This document shows, piece by piece, positions 3,581 through 36,084 of a stretch of DNA of 36,451 nucleotides; within the stretch, counting starts at the first letter, position 1; every line of letters starts with the position of its first letter. Made by a program: the position numbers and the translations under genes. This DNA comes from a virus. Under the pieces are notes generated by a model. It worked only from the letters and a program-made list of their open reading frames with translations, was not told the DNA's origin and made no database searches. The stretch spans positions 1-36,451 of IMG/VR virus record IMGVR_UViG_3300017776_000060; one strand, given 5' to 3'.

Positions 3581-3615
3581 TTGGGTTCACTCTCCCCCTT
3601 TTTTTAGTATTTATG
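3578..3615 (-). repeat. Promoter/leader cassette copy 3
   Basis: CATAAATA (3615-3608), then GGGGGAGAGTGAACCCAAA and the ATG of the 225-residue gene: one change from copies 1 and 2 in the leader. Confidence 0.75.
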
Positions 3616-3654
3616 AAAAGACTTAGTTGTCAATTATCCTTCTAATTAATGGCA

Positions 3655-8990: not shown

Positions 8991-9026
8991 TGGGTTTCAC
9001 TCTCCACCCTTTTCTTTTTATTTATG
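8988..9026 (-). repeat. Promoter/leader cassette copy 4, diverged
   Basis: CATAAATA (9026-9019), then GGTGGAGAGTGAAACCCA and the ATG of the 326-residue fibre. Several changes from the other copies, but the same layout and length. Confidence 0.65.
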
Positions 9027-9029
9027 AGA

Positions 9030-12000
9030 TTAAGTTGCTGGGAAAACTGAAAGTATTCCAACCATCGCACTGTGACTTGTACATTGATAGAACAATTGTG
9101 CTGGTGCTGCGAATGGAACTTCAAATTTGACAACTCCAACTGCTGCTCCATTGTTTGTAACTCCAGTATTATAAGCAGATCCTCCATCTGATGATCGTAT
9201 CTGGAATGGATGACCACTTGCATTCACGTTAAACTCATATGTTTGACCCCTTGCAACATAAATTGTTGAGTTGTCAGCTGATCCATCAAGTCCACCAGGC
9301 CCTGTGAATCGATATGAGGATGATCCATTATTTACAACTGACCATCTGGATGTCACTGCATCTGATAGATCACCAACAAACTTGGTTGCAGTTGAAACAC
9401 CAGTTACAAATGCGTCTCCATCAGAACTGAGTGTAACACCAGTTCCAACTTTGATTGAAGTTGCAGTTAAAATACCAACATTGTATTTCTCAGTTCCAAG
9501 ACCAACTGTAAGATTAGATCCTACATTGACCAACTGAGTCCAATTACCAGCGTGTGCATAGAATGCCTTACCAGCAACATGAACATGAACAAATGCACCA
9601 TGATATGTAGATGCAGATGGTAGATCTGAGTAGTTATTATATAAGAATGGTATAATATTGTTTGTTGAGATTCCAAGAACTCTCTTTCCAATCGTTGTAA
9701 TACCAGTTGTGAATACATCTCCGTCTGGACTGAGTGTTATTCCAGATCCAACAACGACATTTCCCATCGCTGTTATGACACCGACAACATTAACTCCAGA
9801 CTCACTTGATGTGACGGCAGATCCAACAGTTGTATGTTCAAATGTTGCACTTGTCGCTCCAAGATCACCTGTGTTTGAATTAAATGTGAGATTTGTTCCA
9901 GTTTGAAGTGCTTGATTACCTGTTGCTGAAGTTGCAAAGGTTGGGAAACAAGTTGTGTCTGTTGATTCATCAGCAAGAGTAACAGTTGAAGAAACGTCTG
10001 CGGTTCCAGTCACATTACCTGTGACATTACCAGTCACATTACCAGTTAATGCACCAACAAAGGTTGTTGATGTGGTTACACCTGTTGCAAATACATCACC
10101 ATCAGGACTTACAGTAACTCCTGTTCCGACTTGTAAAGTGTTACTAAGAGTAGAAACACCTGTGATATTAAGATTTCTACCAGTGATTTCATCGTATGTA
10201 ATATCGCCTGCAACATCTAAGTTTCCGCTAATTTTCACACGACCTGTAACAGTTAGAATACCAACTGTTGTAATACCAGTTGCAAATATATCTCCATCAG
10301 GACTTAAAGTAACTCCTGATCCAATCAGAACATCATTTTGTAGAGTTGAAATACCTGTGACATTTAACTTATCTGTGATAATATTATCTGTTCCAGCAGC
10401 ACCAACCACTGTTGCAATACCAGTTGAGAATTGAACTGATAGATTATCAGCAAAGTTGACAGTCGCAGCAGTACCAACGGCACTTCCACTGTCTTGAACC
10501 ACGAAACCAGATCCGATTCCAATTACACCTGTCAGTGCAGATCCATCTCCACTTAATTCAGTTGCAGTTAGAATTCCAGCATTGATATTACCAAATGAAG
10601 TTGCAGTTAGAACACCTGTAATGTTTACACTACCATGAACATCAAGTTCTTGAGATGGATTTGTAGTGCCAATGCCGATCTTATCAACACTTACAACTAC
10701 TGAATCTTCATCCTTAGATACTAAACCAAACTTTCTCCAAGAGTTTTGTGTGGTATAAACCCAACCAGCATAACCACTCTCTGATGGTTTGGTAGTGAGA
10801 ACCACATCTCCAGCAGCGCCACCGACTGATGGTGTTGCGATTCCGACTGTGATTTTTCTAGCAACTTTTCCATCACCCTGTAATTGTAGTGATACAGCTT
10901 CAATACCATCAGCTGATGTTGATGTTACTTTACTTGTAAAGATAGATGGGCCATTGAACTCAGATAATACATCTTTGTTTGCTCCACCAGTTACTTTGAT
11001 CGCATCTGTGTCTGTCTTATAAACATCATGACCTTCACCTGTGACAGTTGTGATAGGTGCATCAAATATTTCTTCTTCACCTGTTGTTCCTTTAATAACT
11101 TTATTACCAATAAAGTATTCACCAACGTCATTAAGACCTGTATAGAAGTTTTGTCCTCCACCTCTCTTCTGCGTCTGACCTAACTTACGATCTTCTGTGG
11201 ATAGAACCTTCGTTTGTTTCTCTGGTAAAGCAACAGAGTAATTACCTTGACCAAATCCAACATATTCAAATGTCTGGTTCGCAGCACGAATCAGTGAGTT
11301 TCTTCTTGATTCAACAGGGACAACACGAACTTTCTTAATCTGTGTTCCTGATGGATGGTTTGTTGACTTAGTTCCAAACACACCTCTGAATACAGAGTTG
11401 ATTGATGTGTTCTTAATTCTCATCATCTCATCATTAACCATGATGTAATCACCAATGTTCAATCCACTTGCAGTAGCATCTGAAATAGTGATTGAAGATG
11501 ATGTTGATGTAATACCAGATGAAAGTGTTGTTGTAATTCCAACAAAGAGACTTGACATTCTACTTCCAATCTTCTCATCATCAGCACTAATCGCACCATC
11601 ATTTGATGAATATCCGCCAGGGAATCCAAATACAGATCCAGATAAAGTCGGTGCAGATACAGTTGATACACCAAGATTGACTGTAAATGTACTCAATCCT
11701 ACATTTTCTTGAACAATAAAGACACCATTGTATGCAGTTTGACCAGCACCAGCTAACTTAACTTTCGATCCAGCAAGTAAACCGTGTGCAGTAATACCAG
11801 TTCCAACTGTTGCAATACCAGTTGTAATGTCGTATGAAATTGCAGTGACAGGAATTGCAGGGCCAACAAATGACATTGATGCATCTGATACTGCCGATCC
11901 AACAACAATATTATTACTACTTCCTCCTAATGATCTACCAAAATCAATGATCTCTGTAGATGCAAACGATACCTGTTTAGGGCCAGGCGTTGCTGTAACT

Positions 12001-15550: not shown

Positions 15551-15558
15551 TATTTATT
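15551..15558 (-). promoter_or_regulatory. Late promoter-like AATAAATA before the giant fibre
   Basis: AATAAATA on the minus strand, overlapping the stop of the oxygenase gene and 35 bases before the ATG of the 2161-residue fibre. Confidence 0.55.
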
Positions 15559-16069
15559 CAACGGAATAATACCAAAAAGAGAGTGCATATCTCTCTGAGT
15601 TCTCTACTTTATCAACATAATGTAGATTTTTTGTATTTTCAAAGATAATTAATTTTCCTGGCTCTGGTTTGACCGTCACATCTTGAAAAATTAAGTTACC
15701 ACCCTCAAAATCATTATTTAGATACAGCATCGCTGCAACTTTGTTTGGTGTATGAACATTATTACTATCAAAATGAGGTTTCATGAATGTTCCAGTCGGC
15801 CATCTGACGATGCCAACATAACCTAATTGACAATCAACTAAACTTTTACACTTTTCAGTAACCTTTGTAACAACCTCATCATTGTCTTCGGGTGTTATAG
15901 GATCAACATTATTACCATAATATGTAGCGCCATGATCAATCCATTCAATGTCTGTAGAATAAACATCATCATGACTCACATTTTCACTCTTATTTAACGT
16001 AGCATAATCTATCAGTCTTTGACACTCACTTAAAGAAATGAAATCTTCTTCTATGTAAGGGAAACTCAT
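15554..16069 (-). CDS. 2OG-Fe(II) dioxygenase, prolyl-hydroxylase-like
   Basis: This 171-residue protein carries the full facial triad of the 2-oxoglutarate/Fe(II) oxygenase family: HxD at His99-Phe-Asp101 (MKPHFDSNN), distal His150 (NLHYVDKV) and Arg160 (SERYALSFWYY) for the 2-oxoglutarate carboxylate. The length fits the compact P4H-like phage versions. Such genes are common in T4-like cyanophages; their substrates are mostly unknown. Here it sits between the baseplate needle genes and the giant fibre and shares an ATGA overlap with its upstream neighbour, so hydroxylation of a virion protein is a fair guess, as is a role in host metabolism. Confidence 0.88.
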   Translation of the reverse strand: MSFPYIEEDFISLSECQRLIDYATLNKSENVSHDDVYSTDIEWIDHGATYYGNNVDPITPEDNDEVVTKVTEKCKSLVDCQLGYVGIVRWPTGTFMKPHFDSNNVHTPNKVAAMLYLNNDFEGGNLIFQDVTVKPEPGKLIIFENTKNLHYVDKVENSERYALSFWYYSVE

Positions 16070-17546: not shown

Positions 17547-19631
17547 TTACTTTTGAATACAACTGATTACAGTAACAACTGCATCTTGATCTATTTGAGG
17601 TGAATCAGCAGATTGTTTTGCATCATCAACTTTAGTGAATTTCAAAACAGGTAATAGTCTAGCGCCAACTCCAGTGTCACTATTTATCGTTAAATCTGGA
17701 AGGTCTGTGAATCCAAACCCACCATTAACAACTTCTGCACCAATAATGAATCCATCTTCTACTTTTAAATTGACCTCTGCTTGGCCAGGTTTTATAGAAT
17801 CAACATCAGTGCCTGTTATTGATCCATTCTCAACAGTGATAGTATCATTGTCATTATAACCGAATCCAGTGTTTTGCACAACCACTCCATCTAATTCTGT
17901 AACGTAAGATGTTTCCCCATCGTAATTTGCATTTGGATCTGGAACAACATCTTTAACATTTCCATCTAAGTCAGTTTCTGTGGTGTTTGGAAGATAATCT
18001 TGGCCAGGGCTAGTTATAACAACACCTATGACTCCAAGAGATTTATTTCCATTTGGATCAGTCACCTCACCCATAACTGGATATCCTCCAGCGCCAAAAC
18101 CTTTATTGCAACTATCATAGAATGAAAGTATTGGTGGTTGTTTGAATCCGAATCCTGGCCCATTAATTGCAACACCAATGATATTACCAAGAGCGTTTAC
18201 AATTGAACTTCCACTTGCACCTTGACCACCTCCACCAAGGAAATCAACTCTAGGTGGCCCACATTTAAGAACGTTAGTATCACAATTTGGAGCACTTGGA
18301 TCTGCTTCAATCATACCATCCACTGTGTCAACGAATGAATCAAGTTTTGATTTTAATCCAGCCTTTGAAATAATGTCACTAAAGTTGTCTTCAATAGCCT
18401 CTGAGATTCCATTTTTACTGGAAAATGTCATCGGTTTAGCACAGTCTAAGTTATCACAATCTAAGACGTTGGTGATTATGTTTGCAAATTTAATTGCTTT
18501 TGAAAAAGTTTCACTAGGTAAAGCGATTCCACCACCTTGTATATTATTTAATTGAGTAAACAAACCTCCAAGATTAGTATCAATGATATTATTAAGTTGT
18601 CCAAACATATCACTCATAAAGTTTTCCACACCACAAATGGGAACATCTAAAACTTGTCCAATCATATTTTCAAGACTCTTAGAAAGATAATCTTTTAATT
18701 GATCTATTATCTTTTCAAAATTACAAAAAATAGTATTCTGTAGATTCTTCTGTGCTAATTGTGCTGGAGCTTGATTAAATATATCTGTTTTTTCTTCTAA
18801 TGTTTTGTTAAACTTATCCATCGTCTCACTTATTACCCAAGATCTACCACGACGAACCAATTTTTTCATTGACTTATGAATTCTATTCGTTGCCAATTGA
18901 ACTTCACTATTGATATCAACGATAGATCCGATAGCTGGATTTATAAATGTAGCTTGATCATTTAATTGTTTAAGTGTCTGTATTTTACGAGTAAAATCTT
19001 TAATTGAATTACTTATGTTTGATATTTCATTCTCCTCACACGGACTAAAACTATCGACAGTTCTATCTTCTCTTGAAGTCTGTTCTAGTTTAGAAACTGT
19101 TTCCTTTGTTCCCTGATTATCAGACATCACAATTTTTGGGCCAGGCGAATTAGGGGTCATGTCTGCATGAGCCTTATGTTTACCAAGATCAGCTTTTGGT
19201 GAAGTGAAAGGTATAAAATCAGTTTGTCCAGTTGAGTAAAATTCAGATTTTTTTATTCCATCTTCAATAAAGTTTTGTTTGTATAAAGTTCCAAAAATTA
19301 CAGGTTGTTGTGCGTCATCACCATCCATGAAGAATCCAACTACAACTTCTCCACCTTGATATTGCATTGTTTCTCCTTGGCCACCAGTCGTTGAGACGTT
19401 TGATGGTAGAAGAACATGTGCTAGAGGTAACTCTTCATCTTTTAAATCAGTGTCATTTCCATGATAACCAACAATACGGACACGACATCTAAATTGATAG
19501 ATATCTTTTTTGTCCTTAGCTCTAGTCACCTCTAAAGAATCTTTCCACTTCCCTTTATCTGGATCGGTCACTTGACCAATCCACCATCTCATCGGATCTT
19601 TTCCCCAAAAATTAGTTGCTGGTTGATACAT
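17547..19631 (-). CDS. 5: Baseplate hub protein gp5, no lysozyme domain
   Basis: The N-terminal ~120 residues match the OB-fold of T4 gp5/VgrG hubs: WWIGQVTDPDKGKWKDSLEV, FRCRVRIVGYHG, LPLAHVLLPSN, and GEVVVGFFMDGDDAQQPVIF followed by GTLY. The middle (residues ~200-400) is helical. The rest is Gly-rich beta repeats (GPGFGFKQPPILSFYD, NTGFGYNDNDTITVENG, NGGFGFTDLPDLTINSD), which look like a spike-type repeat. I find no phage-lysozyme catalytic pattern, unlike T4 gp5, which digests peptidoglycan. At 694 residues it is longer than T4 gp5 (575). It follows cp12 by 4 bases and precedes the needle-like gene. Confidence 0.82.
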   Translation of the reverse strand: MYQPATNFWGKDPMRWWIGQVTDPDKGKWKDSLEVTRAKDKKDIYQFRCRVRIVGYHGNDTDLKDEELPLAHVLLPSNVSTTGGQGETMQYQGGEVVVGFFMDGDDAQQPVIFGTLYKQNFIEDGIKKSEFYSTGQTDFIPFTSPKADLGKHKAHADMTPNSPGPKIVMSDNQGTKETVSKLEQTSREDRTVDSFSPCEENEISNISNSIKDFTRKIQTLKQLNDQATFINPAIGSIVDINSEVQLATNRIHKSMKKLVRRGRSWVISETMDKFNKTLEEKTDIFNQAPAQLAQKNLQNTIFCNFEKIIDQLKDYLSKSLENMIGQVLDVPICGVENFMSDMFGQLNNIIDTNLGGLFTQLNNIQGGGIALPSETFSKAIKFANIITNVLDCDNLDCAKPMTFSSKNGISEAIEDNFSDIISKAGLKSKLDSFVDTVDGMIEADPSAPNCDTNVLKCGPPRVDFLGGGGQGASGSSIVNALGNIIGVAINGPGFGFKQPPILSFYDSCNKGFGAGGYPVMGEVTDPNGNKSLGVIGVVITSPGQDYLPNTTETDLDGNVKDVVPDPNANYDGETSYVTELDGVVVQNTGFGYNDNDTITVENGSITGTDVDSIKPGQAEVNLKVEDGFIIGAEVVNGGFGFTDLPDLTINSDTGVGARLLPVLKFTKVDDAKQSADSPQIDQDAVVTVISCIQK

Positions 19632-19635
19632 TTAA

Positions 19636-19863
19636 TTAGTCGTCATATACTAGACATTCTGGTTCGTCTGGATGTAAGTCACAGAATATTTCTAGAGCAT
19701 TCGGATCGTGGTGATCTCCTGCCTTAATCTCATCTTTATGATGTTCTGCATACTCTTCTAGATCATGCAATTCTTCTTTTGCATGTCTGCGTGCTGCAGG
19801 GTTTGCTTGTGGATCGTCAAGGATTTGTTTATCCTTTTCGATATGATCTTCGATTGATTTCAT
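19636..19863 (-). CDS. cp12: CP12-like Calvin cycle inhibitor
   Basis: The 75-residue protein ends ALEIFCDLHPDEPECLVYDD. This is the CP12 C-terminal signature: two Cys (61 and 70) separated by eight residues, with a Pro in the loop and a terminal Tyr-Asp-Asp. The centre (AKEELHDLEEYAEHHKDE) aligns with the AWD_VEEL core helix. The N-terminal Cys pair of plant CP12 is absent, as in some cyanobacterial forms. CP12 ties GAPDH and phosphoribulokinase into an inactive complex, and phage copies are thought to hold back the Calvin cycle so carbon flows to the pentose phosphate pathway. It has a strong ribosome site (AGGAG, 5 bases before the ATG) and a late-promoter-like motif overlapping the gp27 stop. 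Confidence 0.85.
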   Translation of the reverse strand: MKSIEDHIEKDKQILDDPQANPAARRHAKEELHDLEEYAEHHKDEIKAGDHHDPNALEIFCDLHPDEPECLVYDD

Positions 19864-19882
19864 TTGATTCTCCTGTTTCTTT

Positions 19883-19890
19883 TATTTAAG
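19883..19890 (-). promoter_or_regulatory. Late promoter-like CTTAAATA before cp12
   Basis: CTTAAATA on the minus strand, overlapping the gp27 stop (GCT TAA ATA). It is followed by ACAGGAGAATCAA and the cp12 ATG at 19863. Confidence 0.5.
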
Positions 19891-21133
19891 CGGTGAACAC
19901 ATCACGAATTAAAGTTAATCGAGTTGTGGCCTTACTACCCTCTAAATTTGATAATGTATGTTTTAATTCAGATATCATATATTTTCCACTAATATCATTA
20001 TCTTTATCCGTACCATAAGTTGTGGATTTTTCATCTTCACTTTTTCTAAGAGGTAATTTGACATCAATCATGTAACCAGCTCTTAAGTCAGGATTAAAAG
20101 GAATAACGATACTCAAAGATTGAGAGAATAGTAAATTATTCCTAGCATAAGACTTATTTTGATAAACGGCAAGCTCTGATTCTGGTTGTGTGTCATCCTT
20201 CGTAGCACCAACTTGCATGGCGCCAGGATCTGTTACCCTCAACATTAACCTTGTTGGAAAATTTTCTAATCCATTTGGTAATACAGGTGGTTTCTTTAAA
20301 TCCATTTCAGATATTTTATAATCAACTATTTTGGTCACTTGATTTTCAATATCAACGTATATAGTCTTATTTGCATACATTCCCATTCTTAAGTTAATTC
20401 CAATATCATTAGTTTGATTTAAATTATTTTCAGCAATTCTAAAATCATCCTCCGTAGGAATTTCTGGTTTTCTATAAACAATCGCATTTTCCTCTAATAA
20501 TTTTTCAATTGATCGAAATACATATCCATCTAACGTCTCAAAAAATAAAAAACCAAAATTTTTATTTCCTGATTGTGCTTTAGGACATAACCACTGAATT
20601 GTATCAAATGGTCTTTTTAAATTACCCACAAAGGTATATGAATTGGTAGCTCTATCATCGTTAATTCCCTCAATATTCTTGGAAGTCTGAACACCTTTTC
20701 TGTCATCCTTTAGTATTCTAAGAACAATATCAGAAATATTTCCAGTAAATCTTTGATTTAACCTTGATGTTTCATTAATCATTGATTCAACTGAAATAAA
20801 TTCTAAAGTTGCTAATTGTGAATTACCACTAGTCTTTACATCTTTAACAGAATTTAATATCATAAAATGTTTGTCAGGATCTATTTCAAAATCTTTTTGA
20901 CTCTCATTTCCAGTTGTCACTCTTAACGCAACATATTCGCCACCAGTTATACCCTCACGACTAATTAATTGATCAACATCAAGAAAAGTAATTGTCATTG
21001 ATATTGATGGACTTTTTACACTCTCAAAATAAGTGATCGTGGGATTACCTCCCGATATCTCAAAAGGTTCAGATAGAGATGATCCCTCAGTTGGGATTAA
21101 AGTACATTCTTTAATAAAATATTTATTTTCCAT
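19886..21133 (-). CDS. 27: Baseplate hub protein gp27
   Basis: The 415-residue product is close to T4 gp27 (391) and sits in the expected hub order next to gp5. The N-terminal half shows the double tube-domain style (FEISGGNPTITYFESVKSPS, ISMTITFLDVDQLISREGIT, then ATLEFISVESMINETSRLN). The C-terminal part, RAGYMIDVKLPLRKSEDEKS and DISGKYMISELKHTLSNLEG, is the conserved end of phage hub proteins related to gp27 and gpD. gp27 forms the trimeric ring joining the gp5 spike to the tail tube. Its ATG overlaps the previous stop by one base (TAATG). Confidence 0.82.
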   Translation of the reverse strand: MENKYFIKECTLIPTEGSSLSEPFEISGGNPTITYFESVKSPSISMTITFLDVDQLISREGITGGEYVALRVTTGNESQKDFEIDPDKHFMILNSVKDVKTSGNSQLATLEFISVESMINETSRLNQRFTGNISDIVLRILKDDRKGVQTSKNIEGINDDRATNSYTFVGNLKRPFDTIQWLCPKAQSGNKNFGFLFFETLDGYVFRSIEKLLEENAIVYRKPEIPTEDDFRIAENNLNQTNDIGINLRMGMYANKTIYVDIENQVTKIVDYKISEMDLKKPPVLPNGLENFPTRLMLRVTDPGAMQVGATKDDTQPESELAVYQNKSYARNNLLFSQSLSIVIPFNPDLRAGYMIDVKLPLRKSEDEKSTTYGTDKDNDISGKYMISELKHTLSNLEGSKATTRLTLIRDVFTA

Positions 21134-35412: not shown

Positions 35413-36084
35413 TTAGATTTTAAGTGCGTTGACAGTCTCCCAATCTTTTTGGAAAAGATCTAAACCTTTGTCAGTTAGGATATGATTGTACATCTTTTCA
35501 AAGACTGTTGGAGGCATTGTAACAATACCAGCACCGTTCTCAAAAGACTTACTCACACTTCCTACATCCCTTATCGATGCGGATAAAATTTCCGTATCAA
35601 CAAAATTATATAGTCTCGACTGTTTTTCATAGATGTCTGCAATTTGTTTAATTAAATTCAATCCATCAAATGAATTATCGTCAACTCGACCAACGAAAGG
35701 CGAGACGTAGGCAGCGCCTGCCTTGGACGCCAAGACCGCTTGGGCAGCACTAAAGATCAATGTAACGTTTACTCTAATCTTCTCGTCTGAGAGGAGTTTA
35801 CAACCCCTTAGTCCTTGAGGTGTACAAGGCACTTTAATTGTTGTGATTTCACCAAATTTTTCTTTGAGTCTACGACCCTCCTGTAAAAATTCATTAGCGT
35901 CATCTGTTACAATCTCCATACTAATATCATCAATGCCAAGGAGTGCAATCTTTCTGTAGACTTCTTCTGGTTCTTGACCACTCTTTCTAATCAGAGTTGG
36001 ATTTGTTGTGACACCATCAATCAATCCTGTTCCATAATATTTCGATATCAGATCAACATCTGCTGTGTCAAGGAAAATTTTCAT
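35413..36084 (-). CDS. talC: Transaldolase TalC
   Basis: From ATG 36084 the protein has 223 residues, the size of the short TalC/FSA class. It starts MKIFLDTADVDLISKYYGTG (Asp6), has GVTTNPTLIRKSG (Asn28), and Lys84 in TTIKVPCTPQGLRG as the Schiff-base lysine, then VNVTLIFSAAQAVLASKAGA and YVSPFVGRVDD. Transaldolase swaps three-carbon units in the pentose phosphate pathway; cyanophage TalC is thought to boost NADPH and ribose supply, in line with CP12 elsewhere in this window. I reject the upstream ATG (36186) because the extra 34 residues run through the psbD terminator. Confidence 0.94.
   Translation of the reverse strand: MKIFLDTADVDLISKYYGTGLIDGVTTNPTLIRKSGQEPEEVYRKIALLGIDDISMEIVTDDANEFLQEGRRLKEKFGEITTIKVPCTPQGLRGCKLLSDEKIRVNVTLIFSAAQAVLASKAGAAYVSPFVGRVDDNSFDGLNLIKQIADIYEKQSRLYNFVDTEILSASIRDVGSVSKSFENGAGIVTMPPTVFEKMYNHILTDKGLDLFQKDWETVNALKI

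Follow-up and report, generated by a model that had tools for sequence, protein, structure and literature searches.

The window analyzed here is a stretch of DNA of 36,451 nucleotides from a virus that infects marine cyanobacteria (IMG/VR record IMGVR_UViG_3300017776_000060). Positions 19,636–19,863 on the minus strand encode a 75-amino acid protein with a CP12 domain, whose C-terminal cysteine pair occupies residues 61 and 70 and whose C-terminal end reads ...EIFCDLHPDEPECLVYDD. A Pfam profile search matched PF02672 (CP12) to nearly the whole protein with an E-value of 2.4e-12 and a score of 47.9 bits (curated cut-off, 22.7). The protein also matches phrog_627 (E-value, 7e-39), and solved CP12 chains from the PDB align to it, best at the GAPDH-binding C terminus. 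Upstream of cp12 lies a gene for a gp27-like hub/tail protein of the T4-GC 15 type (19,886–21,133, minus strand; phrog_350, E-value 2e-73), and downstream lies a gene for a gp5-like baseplate hub/tail lysozyme (17,547–19,631, minus strand; phrog_1922, E-value 7e-82); this order is that of annotated phages. An AGGAG ribosome site (19,870–19,874, minus strand) stands 6 nt before the cp12 ATG. A TTAAATA box of the late-promoter type (19,883–19,889, minus strand) starts 26 nt before this ATG and shares bases with the gp27 stop codon. No clear ribosome site accompanies the gp5-like gene, which starts 4 nt past the cp12 stop codon. Thus, the features named in the original prediction, namely a CP12 gene with its C-terminal signature between gp27 and gp5, a strong ribosome site of its own, and a late-promoter-like box, are all present. 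In eight independent contigs, the same neighbors surround a cp12 gene whose protein is identical or nearly so, which rules out a chimera, contamination, or assembly artefact as the source of this arrangement. In PHROGs, phrog_627 is filed under unknown function, although the family contains CP12.

Comparison of 174 distinct phage CP12 proteins revealed that C61, P65, E69, and C70 are essentially invariant, with both C-terminal cysteines invariant throughout, and the median dN/dS among phage cp12 genes is 0.045. The GAPDH-binding-loop feature, in which the C-terminal cysteines lie eight residues apart and are followed by Y-D-D/N, is represented in the window by FCDLHPDEPECLVYDD. Two hallmarks of classical CP12 are absent: the window protein has no cysteine before residue 61 and therefore no N-terminal cysteine pair, and ARRHAKEELHDLEE stands in place of the AWD_VEE motif. 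Marine host CP12s (Prochlorococcus and Cyanobium) likewise lack both, which indicates that the window protein is of the short C-type rather than the classical form. These host proteins match phage CP12 over its full length with a nearly identical C-terminal signature, and that of Prochlorococcus has the same short form and the C terminus FCDANPDEPEC-L/R-VYDD found in phages. Judged by sequence, the window gene is a common cyanomyovirus cp12 that encodes a host-derived short CP12. Because marine host CP12s share the short form and the C terminus, phage CP12 most likely uses its C-terminal Cys-loop to bind host GAPDH, slowing the Calvin cycle, a reading that draws on published work as well; binding of PRK is less certain than that of GAPDH. 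The literature searched contained no GAPDH or PRK assay of a phage CP12. A Prochlorococcus single-cell genome (L520) encodes a 75-amino acid form of CP12 with the KEEIEAGDHHDP (AGDHHDP) insert otherwise seen in phages, which may reflect transfer in either direction.

CP12 is present in 372 phage records. We gathered 240 IMG/VR cp12 loci with three different CP12 queries and found gp27 directly upstream in about 211 of them, a proportion that is only approximate because the sample consists of close relatives of the three queries. At the IMG/VR loci outside the hub, cp12 has talC directly downstream in a few cases and lies elsewhere in the rest. The order gp27-like, cp12, gp5 also recurs in the eight isolates checked (P-SSM4, S-SSM7, P-SSM7, Syn19, Syn9, S-SM1, S-RSM4, and P-TIM40), some of which have cpeT, pcyA, tRNAs, or other small genes between cp12 and gp5. 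Hub cp12 genes of the T4-like cyanophages P-SSM4, S-SM1, Syn9, S-RSM4, and P-TIM40 (T4-GC 337; gp17 in Syn9 and gp023 in P-TIM40) belong to the same family as the window gene (49–77% identity in a 14-sequence alignment) and have a TAAATA-type box in all five leaders. The window differs from these five phages in that no cpeT, pcyA, tRNA, or other gene separates cp12 from gp5 and in that its box reads TTAAATA instead of ATAAATA or CTAAATA. Among the exceptions, cp12 lies beside talC in P-HM2 and MED4-213, within a cluster with talC, PTOX, gnd, and zwf in S-TIM5, and at places neither in the hub nor adjacent to talC in P-SSM2 and S-SRM01. A previous survey found CP12 in 15 of 16 cyanomyoviruses, near gp5 or psbA (Sullivan et al. 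2010, PMC3037559). The hub is therefore the commonest address of cp12 among the cyanomyovirus loci sampled, and its use is ordinary and has been in print since 2010. The original prediction had regarded this placement as odd and proposed a survey of cp12 location in other cyanophages; the survey shows the hub to be the usual address, with exceptions that include the five phages named, and the oddity disappears.

Two loci (L028 and L075) whose proteins are among the closest relatives of the window CP12 adjoin talC and not the hub; thus, close CP12 relatives are found at both addresses. We also noticed cyanophage-type cp12 in eight contigs that are assigned to genomes of Euryarchaeota, Anaerolineales, Rhodopirellula, and Nonlabens. 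Most of these have gp27 and gp5 or cpeT alongside cp12, which points to misbinned or contaminating phage contigs.

Analysis of 150 distinct hub cp12 leaders revealed TAAATA between positions −50 and −8 in 103, compared with none of 150 in a more distant upstream segment of the same length and about 9 of 150 expected by shuffling, which argues that the box does not occur by chance. A Shine-Dalgarno-like site is found in 107 of the same 150 leaders, and the TAAATA core mostly lies 25–31 nt before the start codon. Within the leader family to which the window belongs, conservation is higher across the box and the next 15 nt or so than at the preceding end of gp27, and the box persists while the gp27 stop codon occurs at varying offsets. 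The window box is one base off NATAAATA, the late promoter described for S-PM2 (PMC2984593), and shares the TAAATA core with that promoter and with the T4 late promoter, TATAAATA. It differs from both in that it precedes a metabolic gene and is recognized here from its sequence.

We next compared genes by scanning distinct leaders for [ACT]TAAATA between positions −60 and −8. The box appears in 125/172 phage cp12 leaders (103/150 in the hub and 22/22 outside it), 7/64 talC leaders, 19/75 gp23 leaders, and 1/22 psbA leaders, the last number being small because the variable psbA start left only 22 usable leaders. Unlike their phage counterparts, host cp12 leaders contain it in just 2/62 cases. 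In Syn9, with gene classes that we assigned from the annotation, the box is concentrated at the starts of virion genes (20/46) and is found at 1/62 replication and other genes and at 1/16 metabolic genes, the one being cp12; in P-HM2, the box is less class-specific. Conserved in cp12 leaders and rare or absent in controls, the cp12 box is a predicted promoter of the late type. In the window, talC, the usual metabolic partner of cp12, encodes a transaldolase (35,413–36,084, minus strand; Pfam TAL_FSA, E-value 4e-51) about 15.5 kb from cp12 and has a leader without the late box. The window virus has a predicted late-type promoter at cp12, unlike its other host-derived metabolic genes.

Other signals were considered in these leaders. 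A GTA-N8-TAC sequence seen by eye after the late box in many leaders resembled an NtcA box; this reading was dropped, given that many of the half-sites are N9 apart and that the ribosome site accounts for the 3′ half. A 5′ stem-loop is predicted in some cp12 leaders with a stability not clearly above that of shuffled sequences, and none is predicted in the window leader. Immediately behind the late box and partly over the ribosome site, a short inverted repeat (GTATC..GAGGTAC or GTTAC..GTAAC) is found in many cp12 leaders that do not belong to the window family, eight loci among them; its predicted stability does not clearly surpass that of shuffled sequences.

Host-like promoters, called when at least 9 of 12 positions matched within 90 nt of leader, were found in 32/60 talC leaders (8.3 expected by shuffling) and in 14/22 non-hub cp12 leaders (4.2 expected), the latter being few and partly related. 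The count in hub cp12 leaders, 27/150 versus 20.9 expected, is near chance, both for leaders with the box (20/103; 14.8 expected) and for those without it (7/47; 6.1 expected). By the same criterion, the window cp12 leader contains none. The gp27-to-cp12 distance in hub copies has a median of 6 nt without the box versus 26 nt with it, and such tight placement behind gp27 is as expected of read-through. A generic sigma-70 scan of the hub region was uninformative (37 sites versus 38.8 by shuffling). Hub and non-hub addresses have interchanged at least four times on the cp12 tree; only four well-supported independent pairs were available for comparison of address with promoter type, nothing was significant among them, and so small a number of independent comparisons cannot prove a link between the two.

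The cp12 genes of P-HM2 and MED4-213 are homologous to the window gene and have a late-type box in the leader as well. Unlike the window gene, they lie directly before talC, encode 70 amino acids, and have an additional TTGACA-17-TAGGAT promoter, which in P-HM2 accompanies the CATAAATA box. By RNA-seq, every metabolic gene of P-HM2, and with them cp12, belongs to the middle class (PMC5082946). The box alone is thus no proof of late timing, since cp12 of P-HM2 is a middle gene despite its CATAAATA box. The P-HM2 result is equally not to be transferred to hub copies, because the P-HM2 gene adjoins talC and has a host-like promoter, whereas hub leaders are near chance in this respect. Considering that the box is of the late type and that hub copies have no host-like promoters above chance, we estimate a probability of about two in three that hub cp12 is made late. 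Its expression is probably late, coupled to replication, and separate from that of talC. For the timing puzzle posed originally, the promoter evidence points to late transcription as proposed, whereas the expectation that a metabolic inhibitor is made early does not hold for P-HM2, where the measured class is middle and cp12 is talC-adjacent.

The chief alternative is that hub cp12 is a normal middle gene, transcribed through an undetected middle promoter or by read-through, to which the TAAATA box adds late transcription. The P-HM2 gene is of the middle class and is preceded by a TAAATA box; it has been proposed that middle expression in cyanomyoviruses arises where early and late promoters overlap (PMC2984593); and P-HM2 and P-SSM2 agree in the time class of 95% of their common genes (PMC5082946). 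In addition, CO2 fixation in the host stops at about 2 h with S-RSM4, in which cp12 is hub-located, versus about 4 h with S-PM2, a phage without cp12 and other carbon genes (review, PMC10452541). This difference hints at CP12 action without favoring very late expression. However, host-like promoters, enriched for talC and non-hub cp12, occur near chance level in front of hub copies, the window leader contains none, and hub copies that lack the box sit tight behind gp27. We consider the middle-gene explanation possible but rather unlikely.

It may be that cp12 exists in two regulatory forms, a hub majority that is late-only and replication-coupled and a remainder, beside talC or psbA, that is middle through an added host-like promoter; we give this division even odds. 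In the literature found, the middle-gene picture of cyanophage metabolic genes, cp12 among them, rests on P-HM2, which represents the minority position of cp12. If two forms do exist, most phages would time Calvin-cycle shut-off apart from the other metabolic genes, and P-HM2 would not serve as a general model.

Transcription of T4 late genes by gp55, gp33, and gp45 is coupled to replication, and homologues of the gp55/gp33/gp45 type are annotated in Syn9. Most likely, a late system of this kind transcribes cp12 from its own box, with additional read-through from the hub operon, so that CP12 would be made while phage DNA replicates and the demand of nucleotide synthesis for ribose-5-phosphate and NADPH peaks. 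By keeping GAPDH inactive, CP12 could then direct carbon toward the pentose phosphate pathway, in which TalC, expressed from its own host-like promoter, would already be at work. The cp12 program would thus run later than the programs of talC and of the photosynthesis genes, whose promoters are host-like or whose leaders lack the box. Should most cp12 genes indeed be late and replication-coupled, a boost of the pentose phosphate pathway would come first and inhibition of the Calvin cycle later, which differs from current models.

The hub position itself most likely represents an insertion site common to many phages and not a hub function. One could instead suppose that it has consequences for translation or gene order alone, with the strong cp12 ribosome site feeding translation of gp5 and timing being selectively neutral. 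The window gp5, with its start 4 nt past the cp12 stop codon and no clear ribosome site, fits this idea, but in other phages cpeT, pcyA, or tRNAs intervene between cp12 and gp5, and the box accompanies cp12 outside the hub too, which makes the explanation highly improbable. Least probable of all, as far as can be judged, is that CP12 now serves the baseplate hub or hub assembly as a structural protein or chaperone, along the lines of the hub role suggested in the original prediction: the strictly kept place of cp12 between two hub genes in most contigs that carry it and the 4-nt cp12-gp5 junction in the window are outweighed by the direct succession of gp27 and gp5 in P-HM2, the lack of cp12 in S-PM2, the repeated changes of address, the retention of the signature residues and of the marine host CP12 form under a dN/dS near 0.045, and, as indirect evidence, a virion study of S-SM1 (a phage with hub cp12; 41 proteins), since related records note similarity to S-SM1 proteins for gp27 and gp5 but not for CP12.

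Two further features of the window were noted. A 2OG-Fe(II) oxygenase gene (15,554–16,069, minus strand) lies within the late structural cluster and has no box of its own. Three tail-fibre-like genes have a common leader (2,871–2,910, 3,581–3,620, and 8,991–9,030, minus strand), in which a TAAATA box precedes a G-rich ribosome site with AGTGAACCC or AGTGAAACCC. This motif may form a GGG..CCC hairpin at the ribosome site or serve as a recombination tag for exchange of fibre genes.
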